A DNA stretch of 60,735 bases, from the IMG/VR virus record IMGVR_UViG_3300042384_000237, positions 1 to 60,735 of that record, one strand, 5' to 3'. The notes below the pieces were generated by a model that saw nothing but the letters and a program-made list of their open reading frames with translations, had not been told where the DNA came from and ran no database searches. Positions 15,382 to 59,753 of this stretch are shown piece after piece. Each line of letters opens with the position of its first letter. The stretch's first letter is position 1. A program made the position numbers and the translations under genes. The stretch comes from a virus.

Positions 15382-15397
15382 GGGTTAATTTAACGGG
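15382..15397 (-). repeat. Intergenic repeat R1, copy 2 (candidate promoter for the replication operon)
   Basis: CCCGTTAAATTAACCC on the minus strand lies 34 nt upstream of the SSB start. An AT-rich leader and the ribosome site follow. It is preceded by the hairpin at 15400-15428, giving a terminator-then-promoter layout at an operon boundary. Confidence 0.7.
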
Positions 15398-15399
15398 TT

Positions 15400-22627: not shown

Positions 22628-22648
22628 TTGATTTACCTTTTAGTTATA

Positions 22649-22900: not shown

Positions 22901-22911
22901 TTGATTTACCC

Positions 22912-23064: not shown

Positions 23065-23102
23065 TGTGATTTACCTTTATAATTAAATTAAGTTAATTGG
23101 GA

Positions 23103-23144
23103 GTACCTTATTTGTACTTCATATAAGATACCCCCTTTTCCGCG
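23103..23144 (-). promoter_or_regulatory. Intergenic repeat R2, copy b (candidate phage promoter)
   Basis: The minus strand contains GGGTATCTTATATGAAGTAC followed by AAATAAGG, ending 38 nt before the ATG at 23064. It begins just after the stop of the gene at 23146. Confidence 0.6.
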
Positions 23145-23145
23145 T

Positions 23146-23361
23146 TTATTTTCTACCCGAACTCAGCTTAGAGTCAAGCATATATTGTGCCATCTTGTTA
23201 TCGAAGTCGCTCAAATCTGGCGCCATATCTTCGTGTGTCTGCTTGATTAAAGCCAACTGATTAACCACACGAGTTTGTGCCACAAGCACATCATCATTAA
23301 TCTCTGTAATGATCTGTAGCCAGTGTAGATACTCTACATAGCTCTTTGTGTAAGGTTTCAT
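23146..23361 (-). CDS. Hypothetical helical protein
   Basis: The 71-residue protein starts at MKPYTKSYVE (CGGAG site, ATGA overlap with the previous stop). It is all-helical. No family recognised. Confidence 0.65.
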   Translation of the reverse strand: MKPYTKSYVEYLHWLQIITEINDDVLVAQTRVVNQLALIKQTHEDMAPDLSDFDNKMAQYMLDSKLSSGRK

Positions 23362-24182: not shown

Positions 24183-24200
24183 GGTGTTTCCTTAAATTGT

Positions 24201-24245
24201 GAGATACCCTTATTGGTACTTCATATAAGATACCCTCTTTCCCGC
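24201..24245 (-). promoter_or_regulatory. Intergenic repeat R2, copy c (candidate early promoter)
   Basis: The minus strand contains GGGTATCTTATATGAAGTAC followed by CAATAAGGG, 18 nt before the ATG at 24182. A 6-bp hairpin (AATCCT/AGGATT at 24246-24265) lies immediately upstream, then R3. It heads the early-type gene block that includes the RNA polymerase. Confidence 0.62.
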
Positions 24246-24264
24246 AATCCTCTTTAGATAGGAT

Positions 24265-24301: not shown

Positions 24302-24342
24302 CGACTATAGCTTAGGGGTTAATTGGGGGGGGGAGGTCGGAA

Positions 24343-24358
24343 GGGTTAATTCAACGGG
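24343..24358 (-). repeat. Intergenic repeat R1, copy 3
   Basis: The minus strand reads CCCGTTGAATTAACCC, one base different from the other copies. It is followed by a C-rich tract and R3a, in the same order as at 52231-52309. Confidence 0.7.
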
Positions 24359-24359
24359 T

Positions 24360-24606
24360 TCAGACTCAGCCGTTTCACCGTGAGCCAGATTTTCACCGAC
24401 AGTCACCATTGTGGAACCAGAAACCGGGGTACACGGCATTTTTAGCGGTGCCTGACCCGACAGTGATGCCCCACTTTTCCGTGCCGCAGAGTGCCAGATT
24501 TGACCCCGTCCCGCAGCCCACGAACGGCGAGGACTCCCGGAATCTCTCCAGAAACATACCCACACGCCACGCAAAATCTGACCCATTACTCTCGTATGGC
24601 CTGCGT
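24360..24606 (-). other. GC-rich segment in the 459-nt gap 24183-24641
   Basis: This stretch is far richer in GC than the rest of the window. Two overlapping minus-strand frames cross it, but neither has a convincing start or protein-like composition. It begins right after the holin-region terminator and ends at R1 copy 3. Short inverted repeats are scattered through it, but I could not fold one convincing structure. It may be a non-coding RNA, a packaging or replication site, or imported DNA. Confidence 0.4.
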
Positions 24607-41700: not shown

Positions 41701-44700
41701 ACAATACCAACTGCGAGAGTTGCAAATAAAGCTTTCCAATTCCATAAGAATTTAGTCATTGACATTAAGCCAGCTAATACTTTACCCATTAAACTTAATC
41801 TAAAGGTTAAGCCATTTACACCAGTAATTGCGGCTGCAAGGTCACCAATCCAACGTCCTAAGAATTTGCCTGGAAGCGATTGCATAACACCTGCGGCACG
41901 CCCCATTGCCCACAACTCTTGTGTCATTAATCTTAATTTAGGTACAAAGTTTGCAACACCCCCATTAGCTAATTCTTTCCCTTTCTGTTGAACCACTTCA
42001 AGAGTCTTGAGCAGGTTCGGATACATCATGGTGCCTTTTTGTAAAGCAGTCGGCGGTCCCATGAATGTAGCTGAAGGTGGCTGTAACTTTTGTATTAAAT
42101 TCTCAAACCGAGAAGGTTTAAGTGCTGCCGAACGACCTCTTGCTGCATCCGCATTTAAAGCTGAAATAGCTGCTCTGTCTGCTAATACCTGTTTAATCTT
42201 GCTGGACGCGCCGGAAGCTATTGGTCCAAAAACTTCTGACAACTTAGTTGCAATACCGGCGACCAAAGGTGACATTTGTTTTAATGTAAGAAATAATTCT
42301 CTGACAATAATCCCCAAGTAACTCTTCATATTTAAACCAAGAGCACCTGCACCCGAAGACGCGGCAACACCTTGGAAAGCCATGAGTTGATTACCTAAGC
42401 CACTCAATAAGACCATAAAGAGACGCATAGGGCTTGCTAATGTTAGTAACTTAGCCAGCGGCACAACGAAAGCGGCAAATGCTGCAGCAACTGCAGTAAT
42501 ACCAAGGAATAAAGATTGACTTGGAGATAGATTCTCCCAGAAACTTTTAAGACCATTCGGTAGTGCGCCTAAAGCTGTTTCTTTTATATTTAAAATTCCA
42601 GATCTAACTCTTTCAGAAACATTATCATAAGCATACGCTGTCTTGTTAACAATCTCTTGTAAAACAGTTGTTCCTTCAGTTTTCCCAATAAAAGGAATAT
42701 TAGCTGAGAGACGCGGTATTGGCATTCTTTGATACGTACGAGTCCCGCCTGTTTTTGCAACTTCAGCTACTTCTTGTTTTTGCTGGATACCTTGGTAAAC
42801 ATCACCACCCATTAAATCTGGTGTCTCGGTACTTGCGCTTGCAGTATTAGAGTAGATTAAAGCAGCGGCAACCAATGTAGCAATTAATCTTCCAGGGGTT
42901 ATCACACTTGTTAAAGCACTAACAACACCAGGTGCAACTAACATTGCTCTGGCTTTTACCCATACAAAGAATGATTCAAAAGAATTGTAAGCCATCCCTA
43001 ACGCTGTTGCTGGAATACCTGTAGGACCAAATAAGAATCTGGACATAAACGAAGTAGTTCCCACGGGTGTCAATGCTGTAGTAAACCTTTCTCTTAATCC
43101 ACTAAATACACCGGCTAGTATTGAAGGATCTCTAATCATACTTCCAAGAGTCCCAAACATACGTGCCAAATTACCACGTATAGTGTTATCTGGAATTAAC
43201 GTGCTTAATGAATTCAATACAGGTCTAATAACAGACTCATTAATACGTGAGATACCTTCCGGTCCCATTAATGCTAAGGCAATCAAACCGCCTTGCATAT
43301 ACGCATGCCCTAGTGGGCTGTCATAAAAGACTTGATCAAACATTCCTAATTGATCGGCCATGAGGCCTACCATTGCACCAGAACTTACAGCATTACCGGG
43401 ACTAAAGAAAGATGAAGAAGCTCTGCTAGCGGCAGATTGTGGACGTGCTTGATAACCCATACCAGGAGGTAACGGCGGTCCCATTCCCACATTAGATGGA
43501 TTGGACATTAAGCGTGTCATATTATGACCAGCTACAGCTGTGTTAGCTAATGTGCCTGAGAAGAATGACCCTACTGCGCCTGCAATTTTAAAGACTCTCG
43601 AGATTTGTTTCTCAAAGATACCTAATGTGGATAACATTTTAAGCGCAGGGCCTCCGAAGAGTAATGCACCTAATAAACCACCAGCTGTACTGAATTGGAA
43701 TAAATCTAGAATACCATATACGATACTGGCAACAGTTCCAACAATCGGAATGCTCTTTAAAAAGCCTTCGATAGCTCCGCCAATAAAGCCTAAGAGATTC
43801 GAGATAATACCTGGCAGATCCGCTAGCAACCCGAGAAGAACTGTTCCAGCGACATTACCTGCAACTTTACCAGCTTCAACTGCAAAGCTAACACCAAATC
43901 TTAAATCAGCAAATACATTTGCAAAAGCCATACCAGCTAGTAAAGCCGCTCGTAAGAACACTCCACCAAGAAGAGATGTTATTCTGTTCTCTGGTAATAG
44001 TAAACTAACGAAAGCTAACCCGAACACATTTGCAAAAGCTTTTAAAGCATGCTGTAATTCTTCTGGTAACTTATCAAATAGCCCGCCAACAAAATCCTTT
44101 GCAATAGTGAAAGCTTTCTTAAAGTTACCTGTAGAGATATTAATTACGAAATCACTTTTCAATACATCAGCTACAACACTCTTGATCTTTGCAAAACTCT
44201 TAGCAACACCATCACCGATATCTGAGAGGATATTAGCTGCCATTGGCGAAATAGTTCTGATTGAACCCAGCATCTTTTGCAAATTGGTTGTTATATCTAC
44301 ATTTGAAATTCTATCAAAGATATTAACAATGACTTTATAAACGCCTTCAAAGACTCTGATAACATTGCCGGCAAATTGTTTCAAACCGCCATCAGTATTA
44401 TTTTTCAAATTCTTAGATGTATCAACTACAGTCTCAACCGTATCTGTCCACCATGAATTACCAATTACAGCGTCATATATCTTAAAGAATACTTCGATTA
44501 CATTCTTACCGAAATCAGCAATTGCTTCAAATGCGCTTTCTAGTTTACGAGTCTTTGCTTCAACACCATCAAATATTTTATTTATACTGTTGGCTAAATC
44601 TTTAACAGAGAAACTAATGTTAGTAGCCGCTTCAATCCCTTTGAATTTTTCACGAATATTACGCGCAAAGCTGGAGAATAAATTCTCAACATACTTAAGA

Positions 44701-46973
44701 CCATTTGCCAATCTATTATAAACACCTGCCGATTGGAAAGCTGAATCTAATGCAAGTAGTGTATCTCTTATTGTAAAGAAAGTTTTATATAAGAATGTAG
44801 CAACATTACGAAGAGACGTTCCTGCAGCTTTTAGACTAACTAAGATAGACGCTAAACCTTTGGCAAGCTTATCACCATCAAACTTTATTACTATTCCTTT
44901 TTCTAACGACTTGAAATAATTTTTGATTGTAGAAACAGCTTTAGCCATATCCTTCGAAATACCATCAAAGATCTTTGTGAACTTAGTGCTAATACCGAAC
45001 TTATTAAAACCTTTTTGTATCTTACTGAAGTTCTCTGTAACTTTTATGGCGAAATTATCTAACTCGATAACGACAGTATTAAATACTTTTCTAAAAGAGA
45101 ACGAGCCTGCCTTCATTGAGAATAATGAAGTGAAACTATTTTTAAGTCTACCGCTGACAGATTGTGACTTATCTGTGATATAGTCTAGGAACGACCAGTC
45201 TGTTAATCTTTTTGTTTCAGTAGCTAAATAATCAAAACCATTCGCTAAAGCTTTCGCAATATAAGAAAATGTCTTTGTTAAGATTTGCGTAACCTTTCTG
45301 TTATCAGAAGCTCTAGCCGCGAAGTTTCCAAAGATATCCATAACGTTTACGGCTTTACCTAGCCTCGAAAACATTGAAGATAGAGCATCAAAGAGGTATA
45401 CACCCATACGTCCTATAATTCTTGGAACGTCAGCCCGAAGATCGAACATATCCTCAAAGTATTCTTTCATTAAGCGGACTGTCTTTGTTACAAAGAAACT
45501 GCCAATCAATGCAGGAATTGCACTCCATACAGCTTTAATATTTTCGCGTAGTACTTGTCCAGAAGCAGTTATACGTGTACCTAATACATTTACTTGTGCT
45601 AAATAAATACTACCTATCTTTTTAAAACTATTGATAATTACAGGCATATCGTCGAATGACCAGATACCTGTTCCTCTACCACGTTTAGTTGCACTACGTA
45701 AAGCTTTACCATAAGCCTCATATGACCGTACGCCTGTCATAATGTAAGCATCAAATAAGTATTTTATTTCACCTATTTCTTTCTTTACAAATGTCGTGAT
45801 ACCTAATGCGCCAAGTAGAAGTCTTAACTTTAAAACTACTTTCTCAAAGCCAAATATAATCGGTTCTGCAAAATCCTTAAGTCTCTCTTTTAAATCGTTG
45901 AAGACTCTCCAAGTGTTGACACCCATTTCAAAGGCACTTTTAGAGAGTTCTCCTAAAGCTTTAACACCGTTATATAGAAATTCGCTAAAGAAGTCTGATA
46001 AACCTAAACCCTTTTCGAATTCGGATGCTACTGATTTTAACATCTCCGCGAGTTTGCTGACACCTTGTGCCATTGTTGGCTTCATTAAGGCAAACTCTTT
46101 ATTGATTTGCTTAGCTTGGTCCACAAGAGCTTTCATTACTACATTAGTAGTTATTTGACCTGTGGAAGCTAACTCTCTCATTTTACCGAGACTGACACCC
46201 AAGTTGTCTGCAATAGCTTTGGCTATACGCGGTGTTTGCTCCATTACTGAATTGAGCTCTTCCCCTCTGAGTGCACCGGCAGACAAGCCTTGATTAAGCT
46301 GGAACAGTGCGGCATTGGCACTCTCTGCGGAAGCTCCTGAGACCGCTACAGCTTTCTGAATAGTCTCTGTAACACCCAACAACGTATCCATAGATGTCTT
46401 TGCATCTTTCATGGCTCTTCCGAAACCAGTGAATACGGTCGTGGTTGAAGCATAAAGCGTACGTGTACGTAGTGCTACATCATTAAGACCAATCATTGTA
46501 GCTGTTAGCTGTTCTGATCTGCCTACAACGTTAGCAATCTGATTTTCTAAATCTTGGAAATCAGAAGAGATCTTTGTTAATCCTGCAAATGCACCACCGA
46601 AAGCTACAGCACCAAAGGCTGATTTTAAACTTCCTGCCAGATTAATTGCTAAATCATTAATTCCTTTTAATGAGTCATGTGTCTTCTCTAAGGCTTTATT
46701 TGCTTTTAGATCACTACCTTTATTCAGGAAAGATCCAGAAAAGGTACGATCTGCTTTAGACATTGTATCATTAAGACTGTTAGATTCTCTATTTAGCTTA
46801 GTAATACCTTCAGTAGGCTTCTTACCAAGGTCTTTAGATAACGCGCCTGTGTTTAACGTTTTTTCTATATTTGAAGTGTTCTGAGATATCTTGGCCAGAG
46901 ATCTTGCTAGAGCATCAATACTACCTTGTGCCTTATCGACTTTAGCTTCGATATCAATTACGATACCTGTCAT
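32745..46973 (-). CDS. Giant tail tape measure protein (4,742 residues)
   Basis: This single gene fills 23% of the window. Residues about 120-330 match the tape-measure N-terminal domain (FQDLENQIANVVGRSEQL..., LNQGLSAGALRGEELNSVMEQTPRIAKAI). Long helical and Ala/Gly-rich hydrophobic stretches follow. A PRD1 P5/transglycosylase-like segment is near 2960-3070 (GNVGNLKNYDG..., FAPKSDHNDPVLYAATL). Tandem repeats lie at about 3650-3900. Three GTGTSDSI..LSNGEY modules are near 3450, 3990 and 4640. At about 0.15 nm per residue the tail would be near 700 nm. It sets tail length and helps DNA and proteins cross the envelope. GGAG site; a terminator lies immediately upstream. Confidence 0.96.
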   Translation of the reverse strand: MTGIVIDIEAKVDKAQGSIDALARSLAKISQNTSNIEKTLNTGALSKDLGKKPTEGITKLNRESNSLNDTMSKADRTFSGSFLNKGSDLKANKALEKTHDSLKGINDLAINLAGSLKSAFGAVAFGGAFAGLTKISSDFQDLENQIANVVGRSEQLTATMIGLNDVALRTRTLYASTTTVFTGFGRAMKDAKTSMDTLLGVTETIQKAVAVSGASAESANAALFQLNQGLSAGALRGEELNSVMEQTPRIAKAIADNLGVSLGKMRELASTGQITTNVVMKALVDQAKQINKEFALMKPTMAQGVSKLAEMLKSVASEFEKGLGLSDFFSEFLYNGVKALGELSKSAFEMGVNTWRVFNDLKERLKDFAEPIIFGFEKVVLKLRLLLGALGITTFVKKEIGEIKYLFDAYIMTGVRSYEAYGKALRSATKRGRGTGIWSFDDMPVIINSFKKIGSIYLAQVNVLGTRITASGQVLRENIKAVWSAIPALIGSFFVTKTVRLMKEYFEDMFDLRADVPRIIGRMGVYLFDALSSMFSRLGKAVNVMDIFGNFAARASDNRKVTQILTKTFSYIAKALANGFDYLATETKRLTDWSFLDYITDKSQSVSGRLKNSFTSLFSMKAGSFSFRKVFNTVVIELDNFAIKVTENFSKIQKGFNKFGISTKFTKIFDGISKDMAKAVSTIKNYFKSLEKGIVIKFDGDKLAKGLASILVSLKAAGTSLRNVATFLYKTFFTIRDTLLALDSAFQSAGVYNRLANGLKYVENLFSSFARNIREKFKGIEAATNISFSVKDLANSINKIFDGVEAKTRKLESAFEAIADFGKNVIEVFFKIYDAVIGNSWWTDTVETVVDTSKNLKNNTDGGLKQFAGNVIRVFEGVYKVIVNIFDRISNVDITTNLQKMLGSIRTISPMAANILSDIGDGVAKSFAKIKSVVADVLKSDFVINISTGNFKKAFTIAKDFVGGLFDKLPEELQHALKAFANVFGLAFVSLLLPENRITSLLGGVFLRAALLAGMAFANVFADLRFGVSFAVEAGKVAGNVAGTVLLGLLADLPGIISNLLGFIGGAIEGFLKSIPIVGTVASIVYGILDLFQFSTAGGLLGALLFGGPALKMLSTLGIFEKQISRVFKIAGAVGSFFSGTLANTAVAGHNMTRLMSNPSNVGMGPPLPPGMGYQARPQSAASRASSSFFSPGNAVSSGAMVGLMADQLGMFDQVFYDSPLGHAYMQGGLIALALMGPEGISRINESVIRPVLNSLSTLIPDNTIRGNLARMFGTLGSMIRDPSILAGVFSGLRERFTTALTPVGTTSFMSRFLFGPTGIPATALGMAYNSFESFFVWVKARAMLVAPGVVSALTSVITPGRLIATLVAAALIYSNTASASTETPDLMGGDVYQGIQQKQEVAEVAKTGGTRTYQRMPIPRLSANIPFIGKTEGTTVLQEIVNKTAYAYDNVSERVRSGILNIKETALGALPNGLKSFWENLSPSQSLFLGITAVAAAFAAFVVPLAKLLTLASPMRLFMVLLSGLGNQLMAFQGVAASSGAGALGLNMKSYLGIIVRELFLTLKQMSPLVAGIATKLSEVFGPIASGASSKIKQVLADRAAISALNADAARGRSAALKPSRFENLIQKLQPPSATFMGPPTALQKGTMMYPNLLKTLEVVQQKGKELANGGVANFVPKLRLMTQELWAMGRAAGVMQSLPGKFLGRWIGDLAAAITGVNGLTFRLSLMGKVLAGLMSMTKFLWNWKALFATLAVGIVLKIPFLQDTDESKAAGKNHARAFMGSFESFGKTIDVASWVVGLGVPALMTTALKRSQSRVAAVTQEATAAFNAKVAGGLLPPGAKLADHVTPQIVRDKILKEDVLKRYDSLTGAQRGKEYRTMPGMDAFPRTREGYLGYYQANPNRANIGMSGSLAKGFAGVGAGTAVMGLAAVGGAAIGNKFGGEVGAGIGAGLASMFSMMLIPMVTGWLMSLSALIGPAVFATFGGAILAGGLLASFLMGSTGSLVDSLIEVYDWVKKIIGIHSEVKDVKSGMLAREVTLAREHGLKLQYDATKIKESNIQDPRIYEKYTKSIEEAKKAFDALETAKERGSSYGDTSNLQKDAEKAVEILNKNAAAATRASKFDIQKGVDFFSSFEMNKFRGRMNAQDAFKALTLPTEMGNVARIKPDDVSKSGAFLTPAQEGVKARILSFKKLEEDALALSNVTGLDDAIKTSLSVASDDLVDFTEKVSHDLSGKTVTNLLNDTFFGKNNPQTILDAANLTKAEQVLKALVARGAELKASLEKSDLYQTMVSSLIGNLKDANVTIKADDLLPESEGNIALARMKDLGLEAKRLKDQLDKIGSAEERNRIIAQLSIIGKQAQMAQDVAADAYVNASSTVVKNAEAFGLKNVEALKYVDNNLRLELSKQSMGAMVNATPYLTKPLPPNAKGPRLSTNPFQMIRPVGDPFQQELSPIIPISPLVSEGLTPNIKPLAVPIIPKQFNVEIGASLRDLDTYLIKAKAARALIDTPIPLPTLKARPSMTGSAEDIRILRENSEAQEHFNELVNQREFAIAHIQEMETDIGVMTNRLIGADPFASIKQSAAELGRAGFDYAKVFEDYGKGSADAAIKKISGLKDAIEMVKAGDSGLVQSEWLPALEKELDKAEAAIAHRDIAFPEFGLDAPRKFKRVSTELISEINSIDANIFKLQSDIKLANKDPIQLKSLNTQLADAEKRRDAIKASLADLTTKISTVNEAYGINLSTAVLAGLPSKLWSQLSTTATQYKSALEEAMKESDMTPATEALAASFENLKSHASFLGFFGDMKTRLRETLTDGFTSTFDKIKSALPDLSITSTQYAAMSAGDKAALQSSAETIRFSEELQKLNSMSGDMYQFATSSVKQGMPVNEILIGMQSRFSDEFAKLNIADKLKPATTPFEMFATSNETFKSSVEEFKNAVTGAPTTTATATDSTSKIGAGKPFPASGNVGNLKNYDGTPGFQKFDSIEAGVEKLKKQIGWYTTRHGIDTLSAFTAKFAPKSDHNDPVLYAATLASKIGIGIADKVNFAEPKLNEQMAIGIAEQEGGWDIRSILAAKPGISIADKVSVAQPATEKAVSTTLPNIAQKVNTVSSEVASSFEIWLNNVKAAGTNQASLNRADMTLAETKDVTGFQKRKAMILEAGYTEDAFNAMSEELKNYALSVAAKIAQDKLNLSAAINTGQPTKQSVQDKLNIAAGIEGTNKGLAASTLPTTLAEMQKFEEAASGNVTAFLQTYSGMSAENIGLLSNEEKASASKMVHEKANLEYQMAADAKAGKSTTESSLKILDLGDKISEMGDKAMAAAKVAKDVGMSFATGLTGGFNDALKGLMHGEKNKGESVFQTFAGKLKQNLIDSTINSFSTGITNSLGMGKGGAIENMASGLGEGIFNMFGKGLNAIPGVPTASKATSGFFGDVGTFFREDVGNFFGGKAEGGPISGPGTGTSDSIMARLSNGEFVINAKSTAKYGTLIDAINQDKMPKFAKGGLLGNTNAFSNQAPIFSNAPVLSTPIQTDVTVIGGEDLIDSAKDLTRASDDLSMSAGIGTSLWQQIANMYNDTTTSIGTGVIDVAKEVGKFFADTGKWVWSGVINVYDKTAALLNKAGNFVWDGVVNVAGIISSNLPSMSAVVTWMGGGNQSVTGTVNSGNAPSVTATISKWVDSAGNAIGDVWNGLVGKVKLAKDFVVATISEWYDDAGNLIGEGWKAVKGTLKGINLDTISATFNGWTDSAGNLIGEAWKGVTGVFTVDNMEAVGGAIVLKPFAYMYETLKGVDYSKFFSIETVGKGFKTLLTPFTWIASKVAAMDPGQYLSLDTAAAIGKNIIKPFTWIGSQIMKIPFSDYISIENIKGISATILKPFAFIGEQLAKINWSEVINFKSIGETSLDIIKASGNGILDVGKTLWGWIDNGITALANTNIDWSGITGKVGTSVWKFITGVTQGIGDMLFGQKEGGMAGTGGSATGFLKSAAGVLRGQGTGTSDSIPVMLSNGEYIVPADMTRQYAPVLDAMRSGEYPTGSVKDLNDLDAYITKIKGSANYDSDKLKEAFLNIKNTDGKSLFPNLNYKPISVDKPFGYTSPYLNGVFEGGKVWNTSAEYKQGEKSAPKGSIISSIPKDLAEFYDYILGPPTSSGFDALSPMQIEFGLHNQQVNKMYKEGLIPAPDYYVNTTSAAGKGYYGLRKIPANTPMGGFNEKFQASVENPSKITAETLASGPDFTAWALGKTYGSKAAEGEYNKLLATSSKLLQDQMVGKNIQGILDTTKALSYNGITIPPNEFKSLLAGGAMDVGSWMSDGFGSYDYNDKKTSEATQALLADQLISNDKGISWQPSLGAVATPDSLFGATKDVLGESVQKIKTNIANKTNIDNLAKSGVNVNELLGFKLDSAMPAESQNLTVIQKGEQLSFDKGKTWVDVVNTATDNLNVPGFKIDDKTSGGKALSGLQNLISTGSTSAWLYLREHMGSLYSSISKILKGDFSNIFGEKITPLSKGEASVDIGPMTDIEIIPSNFLGSQGKYTPEKGFGTTKSALAGDFNAFGTLATQLAPVDWTKLIISESGKIGLSKVQIPKTAWDSLGLAFKDLHFAPSIQQVDYIDDNGKRVQDTIYGITIGGNFGLGAATGGLITGAGTGTSDSIPTMLSNGEYVINAAATSRNRELLEAINSGATISSAASPIMAIPTASKSADGANSVTNNSVINMNITGDISRQTRAEISQMLPQIAAGVNQYNRERNYRG

Positions 46974-49332: not shown

Positions 49333-49676
49333 TAGAGAGTCCTGCTAAGTTGTAATAATGTCGTATAACTGTTTGAATTGATCGCTGAGACAACTTTCCA
49401 CACTACAAGGTCAATACTGACTTCAGTATAAACATTGAGTGGTCCAGCATCTTGATTCTTTACTAACAATTGCATAGTTTCTGCAGATTGTGTCTTTACA
49501 ATTTTTGAAGGAATTGCTTTCAAAGTAATATTTGAAATAGTGCCGGTGGTTACCACACCTGAACTAAAATCAAATTCTTGTGTATTTGGCTTACTGAATA
49601 TTACATCAATAGCCAAATCTTTACTCATATTAAATGCCAACGTCAATTGTTTTCCGATTAAGGCTTTATAAGACAT
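49332..49676 (-). CDS. Head-tail joining protein
   Basis: The 114-residue protein starts at MSYKALIGKQL (GGAG site). It is beta-rich with an LKAIPSKIVKTQSAETM segment typical of head closure/stopper proteins. The role is taken from gene order; the family is not certain. Confidence 0.6.
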   Translation of the reverse strand: MSYKALIGKQLTLAFNMSKDLAIDVIFSKPNTQEFDFSSGVVTTGTISNITLKAIPSKIVKTQSAETMQLLVKNQDAGPLNVYTEVSIDLVVWKVVSAINSNSYTTLLQLSRTL

Positions 49677-50158
49677 TAGTTTGCTCTCCACCATGAATTC
49701 TTACCACTATTACGTAGTAATGGAGCCAGTGAAGTACGAACACGTTTGGGGAACTTACTTGGAGGTACAATAACATTCAACGCTATTTCACCCACACTTA
49801 AATTCTTTACATGTCCTGCATCATCCAACAAACCATCATTATTTAATAAATGATAAGCTAGTTCAAAAGTTGCGGTTACAATCCTGAGCGGTATTGTAGT
49901 GCTTTCTAATACTACGGGCATTCCTATTTTAGGATCAAAATATTCTGCATCCTTCCGTGGAAACGAAAGAGATTGTGTAGCACTTGTTGCAATACCAATC
50001 CACTCAAATTCGTCTAATAGACTCGTGGCTGTACAAAGAGCTTGATTCTTCTGAATATCAGGAGCATCAGTCCATGCCGCCACATCCAATTTATTTTCGA
50101 AATAAGTATTGGCCTCTGTCATATCAGCATAAGAATTCACACCTTTAACGAGTGCCAT
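49676..50158 (-). CDS. Head-tail adaptor (DnaT-like family)
   Basis: The 160-residue protein opens NSYADMTEANTYFENKLDVAAWTDA and has ALCTATSLLDEFEWIG, the pattern of Pfam DnaT_2, whose phage members are helical head-tail adaptors following the capsid gene. It connects portal and tail completion proteins. Confidence 0.78.
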   Translation of the reverse strand: MALVKGVNSYADMTEANTYFENKLDVAAWTDAPDIQKNQALCTATSLLDEFEWIGIATSATQSLSFPRKDAEYFDPKIGMPVVLESTTIPLRIVTATFELAYHLLNNDGLLDDAGHVKNLSVGEIALNVIVPPSKFPKRVRTSLAPLLRNSGKNSWWRAN

Positions 50159-50168
50159 AACCTACTCC

Positions 50169-51404
50169 TTAAGAATGGAATACTGGTAAGATACCTAATG
50201 ATAAAGCAGAAGATGCTTTACGTTGCCATGTACCACGAACGTTAGCAATGGTGGTCATTGCTGGAATTGACACGCCATTAACTGTGGCTGCAACAAGACC
50301 TTTAGTAGCGCCACCTTCGATAACACCCATATAATCAGCATTGGAAGGGAATGCAGTTGTAGAACCATTCCAGTTATAACCTGCAGGTGCAAGTACATAA
50401 CCCCAACGTGACCAGATAGAAGTGGTACCGCCACCTTTGTATTTGTTAGCATCACGGAAGACTTCAGTCGAATCAGGAACTGTCAACGATTCCATAGCGA
50501 TTGCGCCAGGCAATACGATGAAAGAAGTTTTAGTTGAAGCAGCATTCAGATCAACACCAGCACCTGTATTAAGTGCAGTCAATTCTGTAAGTGCTAATGA
50601 TTGAGCAGCACGTGTAGTGATCAAACGGAATTTACCATTAAAGATAGTGTTAAAAGTAACATTACCATCAACGATAGTTGTTTCATCAACAAAGTTAGCT
50701 GAACGGAAAGAAGCCATAGTTTCAGGAGATACAACTAAGTATGCCCAATCTGGTTCATAGTCTTTGAATGCCATACCGAAAGCGGTTAAGAAACCTTCAG
50801 CACGAGCCGCACCTTGTACAGCTGCAGTTGCAGCAATAACTGGTTTAGCACCTGCAAGATCAACATAGAAACCGTAGCGTGAGCTAGTTGGATCATTATC
50901 AAATGTTTGACCGCCTAAACCTGTTGCACCTGAACCTGTAGCAGCACCGTTAAGTACTTCAGAAATAGCTACACCTTTCAATACAGAAAGAATAGCATCA
51001 TGTTCGTCTTGAGCACGAGTTTCACCGAAATCGCGACCGATCTTAGCAAGACCGTCCATTTGGGTTACTACTTGAGTCATATTAACTTTTTCAGCACCAT
51101 GAGTACGAACAGTTTTAATGTATGTACTGAAGTCTGATTGGAAGTTAGTTTTAGCACCATCAGTCGCATCTGTTAAAGAAGCAACGTTAACGGTTGGGTT
51201 TAGAGGTTTCAACCAACGCATTTGACCGATAAAAGTTTCGGTTGTAGTATCAATTTGTGGATTACTTGAAGTAATACCTGTGCTTGATAATTTCTTTGCA
51301 TTGGTGTAAGCTTCGTCGCTATACGCGCCTAATGCTTCTTGTAATACATAATTGTTAGTACCGCCGGCTTGACCGGAGGTATATGTTGTACTTGTTGCGG
51401 CCAT
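50169..51404 (-). CDS. Major capsid protein
   Basis: The 411-residue protein follows the scaffold gene and precedes the connectors. It has an N-terminal helical arm, the AQDEHDAILSVLKG spine-type helix and an A-domain-like YLVVSPETMASFRSAN segment, consistent with an HK97 fold. Codon regularity and a strong AAGGA site fit high expression. No separate protease gene was seen. Confidence 0.88.
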   Translation of the reverse strand: MAATSTTYTSGQAGGTNNYVLQEALGAYSDEAYTNAKKLSSTGITSSNPQIDTTTETFIGQMRWLKPLNPTVNVASLTDATDGAKTNFQSDFSTYIKTVRTHGAEKVNMTQVVTQMDGLAKIGRDFGETRAQDEHDAILSVLKGVAISEVLNGAATGSGATGLGGQTFDNDPTSSRYGFYVDLAGAKPVIAATAAVQGAARAEGFLTAFGMAFKDYEPDWAYLVVSPETMASFRSANFVDETTIVDGNVTFNTIFNGKFRLITTRAAQSLALTELTALNTGAGVDLNAASTKTSFIVLPGAIAMESLTVPDSTEVFRDANKYKGGGTTSIWSRWGYVLAPAGYNWNGSTTAFPSNADYMGVIEGGATKGLVAATVNGVSIPAMTTIANVRGTWQRKASSALSLGILPVFHS

Positions 51405-51424: not shown

Positions 51425-52069
51425 TTAGCGCCGAAGAGTCCCCTCGGCTGCACGTTTTAATACTTCTTCCTGTGATAGTTTAAACAATGACTTGTTAGCA
51501 TTATCAGAAGGAGCTGTACTATGGGCGCCTGACGTTCCACCACCGGTTGATACTTTTGGTTTGAAGAGAAATGAATTATCTTCGCTTTCAGAGAATTGTT
51601 TTATAAATGTTCTAAGATCGACACCACTCTTGTGTGTCCAGACACCTAATTCATTTTGAACTAGTTGACTTGCTATATCCATATAGGCCATATCTAAGGC
51701 TTTATCACTTCTAAACACATAACTTGAGAGAGCGGATTTAATCTCGGCATCTCTGGCAAGTTCTAAGTTGCGTTTCACTAGCACCTCCACTTTTGCGTTG
51801 GCTTCTGCTAATTGAAGTTCATAAGCTTCTTTATATTTACCATCATCTTGTAGTCTTTTTAATTCAGCTTCTTTCTCTTTCTGTTCGTACTCAGCGGCTT
51901 TCTTAATCGCGGCATCTCTTTCAGCATAAGCTTTATCTAGATTTGATTTGATAGGTTGAAGAGCATCTTGGATTTTCTTCTCGATCGCATCCACAGGAGG
52001 AGCGGGAATAATAGGATCCGGAGTAGGAGCAGGGGTTTCGATGTTTTCATCTGTGGTTTCTGTAGACAT
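51425..52069 (-). CDS. Capsid scaffolding protein
   Basis: The 214-residue protein has a Pro/Thr-rich N-terminus, a long charged coiled coil (about 35-110: AERDAAIKKAAEYEQKEKEAELKRL...), and a C-terminal helix rich in Lys/Glu, as in phage scaffold proteins just upstream of the capsid gene. It guides prohead assembly. R1 copy 4 lies 80 nt upstream. Confidence 0.83.
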   Translation of the reverse strand: MSTETTDENIETPAPTPDPIIPAPPVDAIEKKIQDALQPIKSNLDKAYAERDAAIKKAAEYEQKEKEAELKRLQDDGKYKEAYELQLAEANAKVEVLVKRNLELARDAEIKSALSSYVFRSDKALDMAYMDIASQLVQNELGVWTHKSGVDLRTFIKQFSESEDNSFLFKPKVSTGGGTSGAHSTAPSDNANKSLFKLSQEEVLKRAAEGTLRR

Positions 52070-52149
52070 TTGTTATTTCCTTTTGAGTACAACTCGTTAT
52101 TGAGTACAGATACAATCTATACCTATGGAATATTTAAAAATTAAATTTA

Positions 52150-52165
52150 GGGTTAATTTAACGGG
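52150..52165 (-). repeat. Intergenic repeat R1, copy 4 (candidate capsid-operon promoter)
   Basis: CCCGTTAAATTAACCC on the minus strand, 80 nt before the scaffold start. An AT-rich leader with a TGTACTCAA direct repeat follows. Confidence 0.7.
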
Positions 52166-52230
52166 TTTAGTAAGGTTAGAAGTATAGTACCCCTTAGGAA
52201 TAGCTTTAAGATATCTCTTAGGTTTAATGA

Positions 52231-52266: not shown

Positions 52267-52293
52267 TAATTATATATTGGGGGGAGGCCGGAG

Positions 52294-52309
52294 GGGTTAA
52301 TTTAACGGG
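52294..52309 (-). repeat. Intergenic repeat R1, copy 5
   Basis: CCCGTTAAATTAACCC on the minus strand, preceded within 6 nt by the long hairpin at 52316-52375 and followed by a C-rich tract and R3b. Confidence 0.7.
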
Positions 52310-52315
52310 GTTAGA

Positions 52316-52980: not shown

Positions 52981-55900
52981 TTATCCAATTCCATAAAAAC
53001 CCCAATCATCTTCAAATTTAGTTGGATCAGGGATAGGTGAGAGTATATCCTTTTTAGTAAGGATATCCGATTTCTTCAATACTTTGCCACCGACAACAGA
53101 TACACCTTCTACAGGTATTAATCCTTTGTCAATAGCTTCTTCTAAGTATTTGTCATATAATTCTTGAGGTAAACCTCTATTCAACATTTCATCCAATGTT
53201 GTTTTAACAGGAGTAGCATCTAATGTGCTTGCATACAAGTTCCTAATACCATCCCGTGCTTCGAGCATATCTGCGGCGTTAGCGAAAAAGGCGTCATGAA
53301 TGGTTGATGTTGCGACATTATTTTTTCTACCCCATAAATGGAAGTTCTTGACAAGCGTAGCATCGTTTGAGTGGTTGCCATTAACAGCGAATGCCGTTCT
53401 TGCCTTGGTTGCGTCTGCAATGTCATTGATCTTACCTTCTGCATTTACTGTTTGTTCCCACCAAGTAGCTTCCGTTTTCTGAGCTATCTGTAGTACGTTA
53501 TTAACCCAATTACCATCTTTATCTTTATACGATAATCGCTCTTCAAAAGATTGGGTAAAGTTCTGTTCAATAATCTTACCATCAAAATTAACCCAAGGCA
53601 CATTAGTCCAAGACTTCGGTAGCTTGTTAGCTGTGAATACTTCAAAACCCTTCGATATAACTAATTTCTCAATCGGCTCAATCTTTAAAACCTTAAAGCC
53701 TGTACGTCTATCATCGGGCGCCTTGACACCATAAATAAGATCGGCTAAATTCCCATCAGGTTTCCAACCATCAAATCTACGTAAGAACTTTTCAGATACA
53801 GCTTCACCAGCTTTTATACCTAAGATTTCACTAACTCTATCTGGTAACGTATAACCCTTGCCACGAGTGCCTAAGACACCTGTTTTAATGACACTAACCC
53901 AATCTAATTTAGATTGTGAAGGTTTAGCATTCTTAAGAAAATCTTCTGCCAATCTGCCAAAGAACTTTGTAAAGTCTTTTAAAATAGGAACTTGTTCACC
54001 TAAGTGTTCAGACATAAGTTTAGCTATAGCTTGGAAATCGGCTGGAGTAACAACTCTATCATATTGATGTGACATCTTCTCGACTAAGTCTTTTGTCTTG
54101 GGATCTAAGAAGTATAATGCTTCCATTATATCATCACCCGGGTCTTGACCTTTGTTGAATACATCACGAACATTTTGTCTAAGTTGCTTCAGTTCTTCAG
54201 CTGTTTCAGGATCAAACTTTTCATATCTTGCTGCTCTAGCTGAGATCTCACTTAACACAGTATCGCGATCACTTGCCTTAACAACTAATGTGTTACCTTG
54301 CTTCTCCAAGATCTTAGCAAGTTTACCTTCTACATTCAAGATTCCGGTTCTTTCGCCAGCTCCGTAGAACGTTACCATGTTCTGAGCTTTAGCGGCTTTA
54401 CGTAAGTCTTTCTCATTTAAACCTAATTTTTCGTTAAGCACTTTAAACCGAGGATCATTATATGTAGAGGCTGCAATCTCATCGTATAGCCTACGTTTCT
54501 GACTTGTTGGCACTACATTCGAGAGTTCTGCTAATTGTTTATTCTTTGTTGTAAGGGCAATGATCTGAGCACCAGAAGACGAAGCATCTTGCTCTAAAGC
54601 TAAAGCTGTCTTATAGTTATCCATTGTTCCGCCAGCCTTCAAGTGATTATCAATCTTAGCGGCTTCCATAGCAAATCTCATAAATTTGCCTAGCTCTTCG
54701 CCTTCGACTAATTGCACTGTCTCGGATTCTAATATTGCACGGATGTCATTAGGCTTTCCACGTAACATTTTATTACCAAGATCTACTAGATCAGGCCAAA
54801 GCTTATCGGCAATTTTCTGTCTACCTGTGAATGATAATGAGTTATATCTACCTTCAAATGTATCATTTAGACCGCCCATAAAGGCACCTATCTGATCTCT
54901 GAAGTTATTATAACCCGCTACTCCAAGTACTTTGGATAGCTCAGTATTAAGGAAGGGTCGAAAAGACTCACCGCTCTGAGGACTGATAAGCCCACGATCA
55001 TAAATACGGGCACGGTGGTCAACAAAAGCGTGATTGCTAAAACTAGAGCCCTTTGATCGGAGCCAGGCCATCGATTTGAATCTCTCATAAGCATCTCCTC
55101 TCGAAGAAATATAATGTTTGTATTCGTTAAGTTCATTATATTTTTTGGCGTTTCCCCTGTCATCTTCAAAGTATAAAAGCTTTTGAGTGAAGTCATAAAA
55201 ATCATCATCTATTTTATATTTAGATTTAGAGGCCCAGTTTAAAGCATCGGCAAGGTTCTTATCAACCAGAGCTTCAGGAAAATCACCGAAACTATTAGTT
55301 GATGTAATAGGCATACGTGTATCTTCTAAACCAAAGATACCATTATCAATAAAATACGTCTTGTAACCTTCGCGGAATACTAACTTATTCTTATCCGTTG
55401 TAACACCGACACGTAGGCCGACATCCACTTTCCTTGTGAGCTGTGCGTATTCTTGTACACGAGGATCAGTAACACGTATATTATATGATAAGGTATCATA
55501 ATAGGGGCCAAAGAGTTGATTACTCAAACGGCTTTTCATACGTCTTTTTTGAACACCAAATGTTTCTACTTCAAAGAATTTACTTACATTCTTTGCTTCT
55601 AATAGTTTCATCCCTGTACTATACCACTCTCTGCGACTGCCGTTAAGGTTAGCAAGATTATGTAAGTCTCTGCCCAACGCAACTGCAAATTGATCTCTAT
55701 CTGGCATATCCGCCATACTAAGTCTGTTAGCAAATTTCAAATAAAATTGCTGTAAGCTGGATTCACTAATACGTGGTTGTCCATTAGGTAATCTTTTTAA
55801 TTTAAGAGGAATCTTATAATCAAATGTATTACGAAGTTCTCTAGCAATCTTAGGGGCTGTCTGATCTTCCCATCTATTCTTAGCTCGTATATTGTCTAAG

Positions 55901-57618
55901 AAGTTATCGTGAAGATCTTGTAGCTGTGTAGGCCCAAGTACAGGATCGATATAATTGTCTTGTTTCAACTTCTTTAAAACATCAGTATCTCGTCTGATCT
56001 GTGTCTCAATAGAATCCGATACGTTCATTACATCAAATTTAATTTGACCTTGTACAACACCTTTAAAGTTACCCCATTGCTCGCCATTCCTTCTAAACCT
56101 AGAGAAGATAATTCTTAAGTTATCCGCAACTACGGCACGTTCATTAGCACCCATCTTCTCATCCAAACTACCAATAAACTCCTCAATATAAATTTTATCC
56201 TTCGGTTTCAAATCCGCACTTTCTCTTACGAGTTTAAGGTTATTATTGAGTACTGATATGTTTGGCTGATAAAGACGGGTATCTTCGTAACGCCCTGTTA
56301 CAGGGTTAAAAACTGTTTGTTCTTCTGTTGGCAATTTAGTCAAGACTCTATTCTTAGTAGCTTTCTTATTGTGTAATAAAGTTCCACGATAATTAGTTAG
56401 ACTTAATGTTCCGTCTAACTCTCCTGCTTGTAGCAAATAGTAATCACGAAGTGTATTCGTTAATTTATTGTCGTTGAGAAAGTCTTCAGGCTTTGTAGCC
56501 GTCAATTGCATAGCGTCTAGTTTGGCTTTCGCATTAGCAAACTTTTGTGTGTCATTAGGTAATGTATACGTTGAGTCAGTCATCTTACGAAGTTCATTAA
56601 TACCTATGGTATTACCTTCTGCATTAGTAAATTTATCTAATGTGACTTGTTGTGTATCGAATATCTGTACTTTCTTATAATCACCTAGATGTCTTAATTT
56701 AACATCTTGCGGTTGTCGCAGCAACCAATCATTATATGATTCTTTCAGCGGGGTGTTACCATCATAGAAAGCTTTTTGATCTTTAGTTAGACCGTCTAGA
56801 TTCCTTCTACGTATTTGTGCAACACCTTCCATCTTGGACATGTCATCCCATGATTTAAAAACAGGGACTGTCGTTGATCGACAATGCCAATGCGCAGGTG
56901 GTAAATGTTCTGTGTCTGTCATCGGATAAAGATGACCATCTCGATGAGCACATAAGCTAGAAGTCCTAGCATCCAAGACAGCTACATACTGCCAACCTTG
57001 TAATGCTTTCTCATTTGCTTGGTAAACTGCATGATCCGCTTGAGCTGTAACAGAGGTAATAGCTGTTATCACAAGTGCTTTTGATTGCATTCTTGTAATA
57101 TCATGTACGTTACCCTTTCTAACTTCTAAGGCTATCTCATCAGAGGATTTACCAGCTGCTATTCCTTTTCGTATAAGAGCTTCTAATCTAATTCTTTCAT
57201 TCTTTGCAATACCACTCCACCCTTGTTCCATTGTTTGATTAGTATGGATAGGGTTTTTCAGCGCAATTTCCTCAGAGACAACATTTTTAGGTCTCTCAGT
57301 ACGCCATATCTTACCCATTGCTGTTTCAACATTCTGGTAAGCGTATGATATCTGATCGGCCGTTAGTGATAGCAAATCCTTTTTAACCGAATTGTTTATA
57401 CTCTTATAAGTGGTTCTTAATTCTTTGTCCACTGCATTTCTTAATCTATCAAACCCTTGTGGAGACAATGCAGCATCTCTCACAAGCTTATCTATATTAA
57501 CTACATGACCGTCAATAATTAAATCAACCTTGCCCGATACCCTTCTTTCATAAAGCCGAATCATTGCTGCACGATCAATTATCTTGTCATATATTTGTGT
57601 ATTACTATTGACGGTCAT
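52981..57618 (-). CDS. MuF-type head protein fused to a single-subunit (virion-type) RNA polymerase
   Basis: The 1,545-residue protein has an N-terminal MuF/SPP1 gp7-like module (about 80-255) with the Cys/His set C223, H225, D227, H243, H245, C246 in SLCAHRDGHLYP...PPAHWHCRS. From about 830 it shows ordered T7/N4 polymerase motifs: HRARIYDRG (868-876), motif A Asp1011 in QDASSSGAQ, motif B Arg1073, Lys1077, Met1081, Tyr1085-Gly1086 with T7 spacing, NHSNDA (1415-1420) and motif C His1441-Asp1442. About 180 extra residues separate B and C compared with T7. The region 255-830 is unassigned. By position next to the portal it should be packaged and injected, giving early transcription. Confidence 0.88.
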   Translation of the reverse strand: MTVNSNTQIYDKIIDRAAMIRLYERRVSGKVDLIIDGHVVNIDKLVRDAALSPQGFDRLRNAVDKELRTTYKSINNSVKKDLLSLTADQISYAYQNVETAMGKIWRTERPKNVVSEEIALKNPIHTNQTMEQGWSGIAKNERIRLEALIRKGIAAGKSSDEIALEVRKGNVHDITRMQSKALVITAITSVTAQADHAVYQANEKALQGWQYVAVLDARTSSLCAHRDGHLYPMTDTEHLPPAHWHCRSTTVPVFKSWDDMSKMEGVAQIRRRNLDGLTKDQKAFYDGNTPLKESYNDWLLRQPQDVKLRHLGDYKKVQIFDTQQVTLDKFTNAEGNTIGINELRKMTDSTYTLPNDTQKFANAKAKLDAMQLTATKPEDFLNDNKLTNTLRDYYLLQAGELDGTLSLTNYRGTLLHNKKATKNRVLTKLPTEEQTVFNPVTGRYEDTRLYQPNISVLNNNLKLVRESADLKPKDKIYIEEFIGSLDEKMGANERAVVADNLRIIFSRFRRNGEQWGNFKGVVQGQIKFDVMNVSDSIETQIRRDTDVLKKLKQDNYIDPVLGPTQLQDLHDNFLDNIRAKNRWEDQTAPKIARELRNTFDYKIPLKLKRLPNGQPRISESSLQQFYLKFANRLSMADMPDRDQFAVALGRDLHNLANLNGSRREWYSTGMKLLEAKNVSKFFEVETFGVQKRRMKSRLSNQLFGPYYDTLSYNIRVTDPRVQEYAQLTRKVDVGLRVGVTTDKNKLVFREGYKTYFIDNGIFGLEDTRMPITSTNSFGDFPEALVDKNLADALNWASKSKYKIDDDFYDFTQKLLYFEDDRGNAKKYNELNEYKHYISSRGDAYERFKSMAWLRSKGSSFSNHAFVDHRARIYDRGLISPQSGESFRPFLNTELSKVLGVAGYNNFRDQIGAFMGGLNDTFEGRYNSLSFTGRQKIADKLWPDLVDLGNKMLRGKPNDIRAILESETVQLVEGEELGKFMRFAMEAAKIDNHLKAGGTMDNYKTALALEQDASSSGAQIIALTTKNKQLAELSNVVPTSQKRRLYDEIAASTYNDPRFKVLNEKLGLNEKDLRKAAKAQNMVTFYGAGERTGILNVEGKLAKILEKQGNTLVVKASDRDTVLSEISARAARYEKFDPETAEELKQLRQNVRDVFNKGQDPGDDIMEALYFLDPKTKDLVEKMSHQYDRVVTPADFQAIAKLMSEHLGEQVPILKDFTKFFGRLAEDFLKNAKPSQSKLDWVSVIKTGVLGTRGKGYTLPDRVSEILGIKAGEAVSEKFLRRFDGWKPDGNLADLIYGVKAPDDRRTGFKVLKIEPIEKLVISKGFEVFTANKLPKSWTNVPWVNFDGKIIEQNFTQSFEERLSYKDKDGNWVNNVLQIAQKTEATWWEQTVNAEGKINDIADATKARTAFAVNGNHSNDATLVKNFHLWGRKNNVATSTIHDAFFANAADMLEARDGIRNLYASTLDATPVKTTLDEMLNRGLPQELYDKYLEEAIDKGLIPVEGVSVVGGKVLKKSDILTKKDILSPIPDPTKFEDDWGFYGIG

Positions 57619-57628: not shown

Positions 57629-58141
57629 TTATTTTTTGTATTTACTTTTACCACTACCAATTGCTCTCGCACCCAATCGTGATGCACCGTAGTTCACAGC
57701 CGCGCCCAAAGCCGCGCCCGCCGCAATGCCTGCCGCACCACCAAAAATGGCACCCCGTGTGCCGCCATAGACCGCGCCGAGCAGTGCGCTATGGGCAGCC
57801 GTGCCTGAGGCTACCGTGCCAAGAGCCCCTGCTACGCCACCAACTACAGCGGACGCTTTTCTGGCTCTGGCAATTACTTTTTCGCCACCAGCTTGGTTTG
57901 CTGTTCCAAATGAAGTATTGGCTTTATTACCGGCAATGGCACCTGCGGCTAGTGAGCCTACCGGCCCAAAGAGAGCACCAATAGTCCCAACCTTAGCGCC
58001 GCCTGTGCTGAATGGACCCGTTATCTTAACAGGAGTAGCTTTATGCGCCTGAGCTAACGCCTTACCACCACCTATGGCGTGATGCGAGCCTTTGGCATTC
58101 TGATTACCTTTCAGAGAAACACTTAATTTAGTATTTTTCAT
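57629..58141 (-). CDS. Glycine-zipper, Ala/Gly-rich virion-region protein
   Basis: The 170-residue protein has a basic N-terminus with KGNQNAKGSHH and two long Gly/Ala zippers (about 48-70 and 95-155, e.g. GALFGPVGSLAAGAIAG and GGAAGIAAGAALGAAV) that can insert into membranes. The C-terminus is basic. Lying between portal and the MuF-polymerase gene, it could be a minor capsid or ejection protein that helps the polymerase cross the membrane. This is inferred from position and composition. Confidence 0.72.
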   Translation of the reverse strand: MKNTKLSVSLKGNQNAKGSHHAIGGGKALAQAHKATPVKITGPFSTGGAKVGTIGALFGPVGSLAAGAIAGNKANTSFGTANQAGGEKVIARARKASAVVGGVAGALGTVASGTAAHSALLGAVYGGTRGAIFGGAAGIAAGAALGAAVNYGASRLGARAIGSGKSKYKK

Positions 58142-59753
58142 TTTGTTTTACCTGTAGTGGAAGGGGTGTTGACGATGCTGCACCAGCGGCAGCTGCCTTG
58201 TCTACCTGCATAGCATAATTATCATTATACTGTGTAGCTGCAGGGACTACTAAATTGTCTTGATTAATCTCTTTCTGAGCTTCTTCGTCATCATATTCTG
58301 GATCTAAGATATCATTACCTTTAAGCATTTGTAACCAAACAGATCTAGGGATTAAACCGCCTTGATACCATGTAGTGATTAGCGTTAACCAATCGGCACC
58401 TAATGGAACTGGGTCAAAATCTGCTGATAATTCAAAATGAATATCACACGCTTCAAAAGCTGTATTGTACCGCCAGTTGAGCATTAAACAAATAATCTGT
58501 TTCATTGTATTAGAGATCTTAGTGCTTAGAACGGCCAACTGTGCCGTCTGTGAAGCATTTCTAATTTCCAAAGCAATACCAGACTGCTCGTTCTCTGTAG
58601 TTAACATTCTGATACCAAGCTTTGCCATCTCATCGATTGTAGATTCAATAGCTCTTTGCATATCTTGTAAAGCTGCTGTGGGCGTTTCTAAGACGGCTGC
58701 TGTATCGCCTTGTCTCAAACGTAACCAAGAACCTAAGCCTGAAGATACAATATCATCAAAGTCTTCATCTCCCATATCAGACATAATAACAGGTGTATAG
58801 GTAGATGCCCCGTATAGCAAGTGATTACGTCTACTAATTTTATTATAGAGACTAACTTCTTTATCTACGATAGGCATTAATACAGGTGTTAACGGAACGA
58901 TGTTACCGTTCAAAGGCCATGCTGGAATATGTGTTAATTTTTCACCATTAGCATAAATACTGTCTAGTGTGTCTACAAGAATAAAAGCACCGGAAGGTAG
59001 TAATTGATTATTCTTATTACCTGCTTCTCCTACACGTAATGTTTGATCACCGTCATCTTGAATAGAGCCTTGATAGATACGGATGCGATATTCACCATTC
59101 TCATCCAGCTCATGCACCCAAACTGTAGGGACACGTCTCGCATGGAATTCATTAATAGTGTAATCGTCGGCAAAGCCTTTAATGATTACTCTTTGTAAAA
59201 TTGTCTTTCCAAACATATCTGTGGAAGTGGACCAGTTAATAACTGTCTCTGCTTTTTGTAAGATAGGGTAAGGTTTAATTTTATCTTTAGTTTCTTTATC
59301 TAAAGCATCAGCATTGGGTACGTTAGGGTAATCTACAAATACCCAAGCTCTTGATGTTTGGATCTCTTCCCAGATAATTTCATCTAAAAATGATATAAGT
59401 GTACAGTCGTCACGACCGATATTATTTATTAGCCAGTCTTTGGCATCTTCGGGAGCACCATCAGGCAATGTAAGAGTAGGTGGCTTTCTTAATAACCCGC
59501 CTACAATCATTTTAGCAAATTGAGAAGTGATGCCCGGTAATTCAGCTTCTGCTCTATAAAAGTCGTATTGGCCCGAAGACATTGAAGGAGAGAAGGGGAT
59601 TAATAAATTTGACAGTCTTACCAAATCAATATGGGCATCTAGCTCCTTTACTGCACGTTCCCCATTACAAACAGCTCGGCTTTTGGCCCATGAGGGTGCT
59701 AAATACATATACGCTTGACAAGGGTCTGCGACTGTTTTAATGGTTCCTGTCAT
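58128..59753 (-). CDS. Portal protein (DUF4055 type)
   Basis: The 541-residue protein matches the DUF4055 portal family: an early YDFYRAEAELPGITSQFAKMIVGGLLRKPP, a central ...HIPAWPLNGN..PLTPVLMPIVDKEVSLYNKISRRNHLLYGAS, and the closing PLGADWLTLITTWYQGGLIPRSVWLQ with an acidic tail. It forms the dodecameric DNA gate of the head. The following MuF gene is its usual partner. The terminase that would normally precede it is not in the window. Confidence 0.9.
   Translation of the reverse strand: MTGTIKTVADPCQAYMYLAPSWAKSRAVCNGERAVKELDAHIDLVRLSNLLIPFSPSMSSGQYDFYRAEAELPGITSQFAKMIVGGLLRKPPTLTLPDGAPEDAKDWLINNIGRDDCTLISFLDEIIWEEIQTSRAWVFVDYPNVPNADALDKETKDKIKPYPILQKAETVINWSTSTDMFGKTILQRVIIKGFADDYTINEFHARRVPTVWVHELDENGEYRIRIYQGSIQDDGDQTLRVGEAGNKNNQLLPSGAFILVDTLDSIYANGEKLTHIPAWPLNGNIVPLTPVLMPIVDKEVSLYNKISRRNHLLYGASTYTPVIMSDMGDEDFDDIVSSGLGSWLRLRQGDTAAVLETPTAALQDMQRAIESTIDEMAKLGIRMLTTENEQSGIALEIRNASQTAQLAVLSTKISNTMKQIICLMLNWRYNTAFEACDIHFELSADFDPVPLGADWLTLITTWYQGGLIPRSVWLQMLKGNDILDPEYDDEEAQKEINQDNLVVPAATQYNDNYAMQVDKAAAAGAASSTPLPLQVKQNEKY

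Follow-up and report, generated by a model that had tools for sequence, protein, structure and literature searches.

A MuF head protein fused to a T7-type RNA polymerase in siphophages, with two candidate promoter motifs

We analysed an IMG/VR virus record of 60,735 bases (hereafter the window), in which one gene encodes a MuF-type head protein joined to a single-subunit RNA polymerase (MuF-RNAP). Judged from sequence, this fusion is real and conserved, and the scans described below indicate that it is not unique to the window phage, being found in a family of hundreds of contigs that includes the cultured phages DSS3_VP1 and DSS3_PM1. New here are a separate T7-like RNA polymerase (RNAP2) encoded beside MuF-RNAP and two recurrent promoter-like motifs on the coding strand, motif E and motif L. 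We consider it likely that MuF-RNAP is packaged in the virion, injected and reads motif E, and that RNAP2, made early, then takes over at motif L.

Domains, conservation and distribution of MuF-RNAP

The MuF-RNAP gene, its domains and its neighbours lie as follows in the window.

52981-57618, minus strand: MuF-RNAP gene, 1545 aa, an open reading frame with full-length homologues in viral contigs
56869-57183, minus strand: MuF domain, residues 146-250, with an invariant C..RDG...PPAH..CRS
53209-55131, minus strand: single-subunit RNAP core, about residues 830-1470 (PF00940, phrog_414, T7 RNAP alignment, predicted fold)
54586-54588, minus strand: motif A, catalytic Asp1011 (EQDASSSGAQII), invariant in every aligned homologue including DSS3_VP1
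54361-54402, minus strand: motif B, R1073-K1077-M1081-Y1085-G1086, an intron target in relatives
53293-53298, minus strand: motif C, His1441-Asp1442, invariant and aligned to the T7 HD motif
58128-59753, minus strand: portal protein (DUF4055; phrog_145, E 1.7e-56)
51425-52069, minus strand: scaffold-like protein (phrog_206, E 2.9e-7)
50169-51404, minus strand: major capsid protein (phrog_247, E 6.6e-20)

Pfam placed Phage_Mu_F (PF04233) at residues 146-250 (E 7.3e-13; 49.7 bits against a cut-off of 29.6) and RNA_pol (PF00940) in two stretches, the best of which, residues 979-1106, exceeded its cut-off with E 8.4e-11. PHROGs assigned residues 2-390 to head morphogenesis (phrog_241, E 3e-55) and residues 863-1096 to RNA polymerase (phrog_414, E 2e-20), and the N-terminal limit of the polymerase falls somewhere within residues 380-830. 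The gene is flanked by the DUF4055 portal gene on one side and by scaffold, capsid, connector and tail genes on the other. This portal-to-capsid placement is shared with DSS3_VP1, and the homologue in EBPR siphovirus 1 also occupies a head-gene position. Because MuF-RNAP sits in a head and tail gene cluster that is followed by a tape measure protein of 4742 aa, the window phage is, on its gene content, a siphophage. The tape measure protein (32745-46973, minus strand; Pfam TMP_3 at residues 132-320, E 2e-47) is unusually long, its tape-measure-annotated counterparts measuring 4968 nt in DSS3_VP1 and 6426 nt in EBPR siphovirus 1. The gene at 49676-50158 (minus strand) was called DnaT_2 by Pfam and head-tail adaptor Ad1 by PHROGs, and the Pfam label looks misleading. 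Since relatives reach 75-81 kb, the window is probably incomplete.

Conservation was assessed on 37 full-length, non-redundant homologues with identities of 57-83%. It peaked in two windows, residues 1001-1100 and 1401-1450, and four blocks were essentially invariant: EQDASSSGAQII (D1011), KAaKaqNMV..YGAG (K1077, M1081, Y1085, G1086), VNgNHSNDA and T.T.HDAFF (H1441-D1442). All named motif residues were invariant except R1073, which was conserved in more than 80% of the homologues, and DSS3_VP1 retains the same catalytic residues at 36% identity across the C-terminal part. The alignment thus points to strong constraint on the polymerase active site. An earlier note on this DNA had proposed a MuF head protein fused to a complete single-subunit RNAP; Pfam, PHROGs, conservation and fold match bear out the fusion, and the residues that it named are found where it placed them, namely a Cys/His module at 223-247, DHRARIY (R869-A-R871-I-Y873), D1011, the five motif B residues and H1441-D1442.

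A search of the PDB with a profile of the C-terminal part found T7 RNAP (E 4e-5), and the alignment runs collinearly through DxxGR, motif A, HSxDG and HD. The DxxGR-like element reads DHRAR in MuF-RNAP, motifs A, B and C follow in order, and the catalytic Asp pair and the motif B Lys and Tyr are present. Profile comparison linked the domain to T7-type RNAPs and to N4 RNAPII, but not to N4 vRNAP. AlphaFold2 modelling of residues 380-1545 from 33 sequences (pLDDT 75, pTM 0.71), followed by a Foldseek search of the PDB, returned single-subunit RNAPs for all of the best 50 matches (human and yeast mitochondrial enzymes and T7; E down to 1.8e-18, probability 1.00), with TM-scores of about 0.4 by query length and 0.5 by target length. 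Against viral structures, the top match was A0A7S5FRK7 (1463 aa, E 8e-62), which is exactly as long as the minor head protein of DSS3_VP1, QGH74596.1; next came phage RNAPs of the T7 type, and N4-like vRNAPs were weaker. The structure prediction that the note had suggested as a check therefore yielded the palm, fingers and thumb fold of T7 and mitochondrial RNAPs, so that the word "complete" is backed, at the level of a predicted model, for the thumb/palm/fingers core.

The MuF-RNAP gene is interrupted in several relatives. Motif B is broken after V1082 in L071 and EBPR siphovirus 1 and after A1078 in L073 and L079, and L012 carries a break at VNG|NHSNDA. In L201, L209, L251 and L252 (G038, G041, G058, G059) the gene lies in three to five pieces, with apparent introns at catalytic motifs, and among such multi-piece genes one break is near motif C. 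Other homologues have in-frame extra domains in the polymerase, of about 228 aa after residue ~1107, that is after motif B (L055, L060, L061), and of about 75 aa at residue ~992, before motif A (L083-L085). Inteins were considered and rejected, and we describe these insertions as inserted domains because their sequences lack obvious intein ends.

In protein scans of IMG/VR, the full-length query found 191 contigs and a profile of the polymerase part at least 582. Among genomes of 84,980 species, one per species, there were two contigs only, both from one MAG, so MuF-RNAP is not a common prophage. Three public phages carry a homologue over 89-100% of its length: EBPR siphovirus 1, where it is annotated "head protein" and the gene is split by an HNH gene, and the cultured dU-DNA roseophages DSS3_VP1 and DSS3_PM1 (Naomviridae), where it is annotated "minor head protein-like". 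No description of the fusion was found in the literature searched, a coverage outside which the original DSS3_VP1 paper (Rihtman 2021) falls. DSS3_VP1 has dU-DNA genes (PMC12697855); none was seen in the window, where neither a dCMP deaminase (PF00383) nor a YfbR-like gene (PF12917) was found, and we rejected a dU-DNA rationale for this (probably incomplete) record.

A second polymerase and two recurrent motifs

The window also encodes a separate T7-like RNAP and carries three copies of motif E and five of motif L.

18057-21017, minus strand: RNAP2, a T7-like RNAP in a split frame (Pfam), with exons at about 19482-21017 and 18057-18734
18793-19248, within RNAP2: HNH gene (HNH_3) in an intron inserted in motif B (MTLP^YGG)
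24221-24246, minus strand: motif E, copy 1, putative early promoter
23119-23144, minus strand: motif E, copy 2
2054-2079, minus strand: motif E, copy 3
52293-52311, minus strand: motif L, before the scaffold/capsid operon
52149-52167, minus strand: motif L, second copy before the scaffold/capsid operon
24342-24360, minus strand: motif L, just upstream of the first motif E
15381-15399, minus strand: motif L, before the replication genes
1353-1371, minus strand: motif L, before the ORF at 588-1265

PF00940 matches were present in 32 of 32 records searched, and each of the 18 records of at least 60 kb (the window, 16 relatives and DSS3_VP1) holds both MuF-RNAP and a separate T7-like RNAP; in the partial record of EBPR siphovirus 1 the matches were confined to the MuF-RNAP gene. 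Where intact, RNAP2 has about 690-775 aa, and it is closest to the DSS3_VP1 "RNA polymerase" (33%), then to T7 (26%). Its intron was called from the split frame and not from an RNA model, because Rfam gave no family match in the window; ARAGORN found no tRNA. Homing endonuclease genes also lie between the replication genes of the window, at 11146-11631 (GIY-YIG) and 6277-6795 (minus strand, HNH_3).

Motif E, YGCGSAAAAnnnGGTATCTTATATGA, is a promoter-like box of about 27 bp, and its three copies in the window, each of them on the coding (minus) strand, compare with 0.04 expected by shuffling. Its core, GTATCTTATATGA, occurs in 24 of 32 records, usually in 1-4 copies each; exact copies are all on the coding strand, and a reversed-pattern control in the 32 records was empty. 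These sites are concentrated about 1-6 kb ahead of the RNAP2 gene, and another one or two copies lie elsewhere. The 44 sites tabulated, many of them from related genomes and hence not independent counts, gave the consensus wAAAwYGCGSAAAAnnnGGTATCTTATATGA with 42.6 bits, and in 37 of them an RBS-like sequence and an ATG follow within 52 nt. Directly after the box comes a stem-loop of variable sequence (perfect arms of at least 5 bp in 18/44 sites of this related set, 2.6 expected), which is probably a feature of the transcript; the box itself is not palindromic and has no hairpin. In the window these stem-loops span 24192-24248, 23090-23146 and 2025-2081 and may belong to the promoter or form a hairpin at the 5' end of the mRNA. 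The early region of the window also holds a duplication of about 123 nt (22518-22640 and 22791-22913, 77% identical, 273 nt apart).

We then took motif E without any protein information and scanned GCGNNAAANNNNGTATCTTATATGA alone against 2.9 million viral contigs, which returned 106 stretches. Among the tested contigs of at least 60 kb, 16 of 17 encode MuF-RNAP, the sole one without it being a contig of 65.9 kb that may be incomplete; at 30 kb or more, 33 of 34 contigs encode a PF00940 RNAP. The 13-mer of motif E was not found in EBPR siphovirus 1, itself a partial record. Given its position and this co-occurrence, motif E in front of the first genes is probably the signal read by MuF-RNAP, and we tentatively assign it to that enzyme and not to the host RNAP.

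Motif L, AMCCCGTTAAATTAACCCT, was found in 24 of 25 relatives, on one strand only within each record. In DSS3_VP1, TAGGnnnCGTTAAAGAnGGGG with up to 3 mismatches occurs at 13 sites on the coding strand and at none on the other, as a putative multi-copy T7-like promoter that differs in sequence and location from the E-like box of that phage, and CGTTAAA is common to this sequence and motif L. The same phage carries an E-like box, GTGAGAAAACTAAGGCATCTATAATGA, in two full copies and one partial; both full copies precede the early operon with RNAP2, and the box contains a perfect TATAAT.

A proposed relay of two polymerases

In the scheme that we favour, the MuF part would anchor the polymerase at the portal inside the procapsid, by analogy with the MuF protein SPP1 gp7 (PMC5576092), and MuF-RNAP is very probably carried in the virion. 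On infection, the 1545-aa protein, presumably in an unfolded state, would travel down the siphophage tail before or together with the DNA, as N4 suggests, and its C-terminal T7-type polymerase would start transcription at motif E before the early operon. That operon contains the RNAP2 gene, whose product may then take over at motif L and serve the replication and capsid genes. Single-subunit RNAPs would thus act in a two-enzyme relay from the start of infection, and the early genes would not need the host RNAP. Several observations count against parts of this scheme. A copy of motif L is also found ahead of the early operon, and the E-like box of DSS3_VP1 contains TATAAT, both of which weigh on the assignment of motif E to MuF-RNAP. 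In the deposited 75-kb record of DSS3_VP1 (whose true ends may differ), moreover, the E-like sites, at 35.8-36.3 kb and at 67.8 kb, are not at one genome end, unlike the early promoters of N4.

That same copy of motif L, together with the TATAAT in the DSS3_VP1 box, favours a different division of labour, in which the host RNAP, perhaps with a non-sigma-70 sigma factor, reads motif E and the injected MuF-RNAP has another early role, such as drawing the genome into the cell by transcription, or reading motif L. We regard this as unlikely. In the main family, the hexamer equivalent to TATAAT is TTATAT in every exact copy of motif E, no -35 box is conserved, and the 44 sites scored no better than shuffles for sigma-70 resemblance; in the early region of the window, sigma-70-like sites numbered 22 against 32.6 in shuffles (sd 5.3), that is, fewer. 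The constraint known for host promoters is far below 42.6 bits, and the scan with motif E alone led back to MuF-RNAP phages.

The polymerase might instead stay bound to the head or act late, in the cell or at the portal during packaging. The portal-bound position of SPP1 gp7 as a head component (PMC5576092) agrees with this, but a separate ordinary RNAP is already encoded for middle and late use, so a copy fused to a head protein is difficult to account for except as an enzyme for use before new synthesis begins; in addition, delivered effectors are the general interpretation of MuF fusions (PMC5512222). We therefore hold a head-bound or late role to be improbable. Still less credence goes to a degenerate, inactive domain kept for purely structural reasons: sequence similarity to RNAPs of solved structure is low away from the motifs, yet those motifs are the most conserved segments of the protein. 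Because mobile introns favour conserved sites, the breaks of relatives in motif B and at VNG|NHSNDA, and the RNAP2 intron likewise in motif B, support working active sites in the two enzymes. The relay from motif E to motif L, begun by an injected MuF-RNAP, thus remains our preferred reading.

Comparison with known systems

As far as we found, N4-like podophages are the only phages for which packaged single-subunit RNAPs have been described. N4's problem now appears to have been solved with a different carrier in hundreds of siphophage contigs, cultured roseophages among them. A MuF protein gains a testable cargo function, early transcription is predicted to be independent of the host RNAP, MuF-RNAP offers a compact cargo for studying how a protein passes through a long tail, and the two enzymes with their motifs form two candidate orthogonal polymerase-promoter pairs.

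N4 gp50 (Schitoviridae) resembles MuF-RNAP in that a T7-type RNAP forms part of a bigger structural protein made late, while the phage makes another T7-like RNAP early; in N4, the vRNAP serves the early genes and the T7-like RNAPII follows (PMC4496689). However, N4 gp50 has about 3500 aa, lacks MuF, belongs to podophages and uses hairpin promoters, which are inverted repeats with a 3-nt loop, whereas the carrier here is MuF and the phages are siphophages; the second RNAP of N4 is a heterodimer and RNAP2 is one chain. The earlier note had drawn this analogy for packaging and injection, both of which we hold to be probable. Homology to N4 vRNAP was rejected by profile comparison: in hhalign, the polymerase profile reached a probability of 0.4-0.7 against N4 mini-vRNAP and 92 against T7. 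With no close homology between the virion enzyme of N4 and MuF-RNAP, the packaging strategy seems to have arisen twice, by convergence. On balance, we lean towards a second origin, separate from that in N4, for the delivery of a single-subunit RNAP in the virion, one reached by MuF fusion in siphophages, with motif E as a new promoter class and a two-RNAP relay largely independent of the host RNAP.

MuF effector fusions and polymorphic toxins (Iyer 2017; Jamet 2017) likewise join MuF to an enzymatic C-terminal module. Those named in the available part of PMC5512222 are RNases, 2H, RelA/SpoT and toxins, RNA polymerase not being among them, and Jamet 2017 does not mention "polymerase" (PMC5576092). 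MuF toxins belong to temperate phages, whereas MuF-RNAP was found in only one MAG in the one-genome-per-species scan. With T7 RNAP and the Autographiviridae, the domain shares its catalytic core and the motifs with their order and spacing. T7 makes its own RNAP after infection, from host-read promoters; here, a head protein carries the RNAP as a fused domain, and the phage has another T7-like RNAP besides. The virion RNAP of phiKZ and AR9 (Chimallinviridae and relatives) also serves early genes, but these enzymes are multisubunit, belong to jumbo phages (PMC12390700) and are not known to be homologous to MuF-RNAP. The nearest known systems are DSS3_VP1, DSS3_PM1 and EBPR siphovirus 1, which carry homologues of the same protein under annotations of minor head or head protein only.
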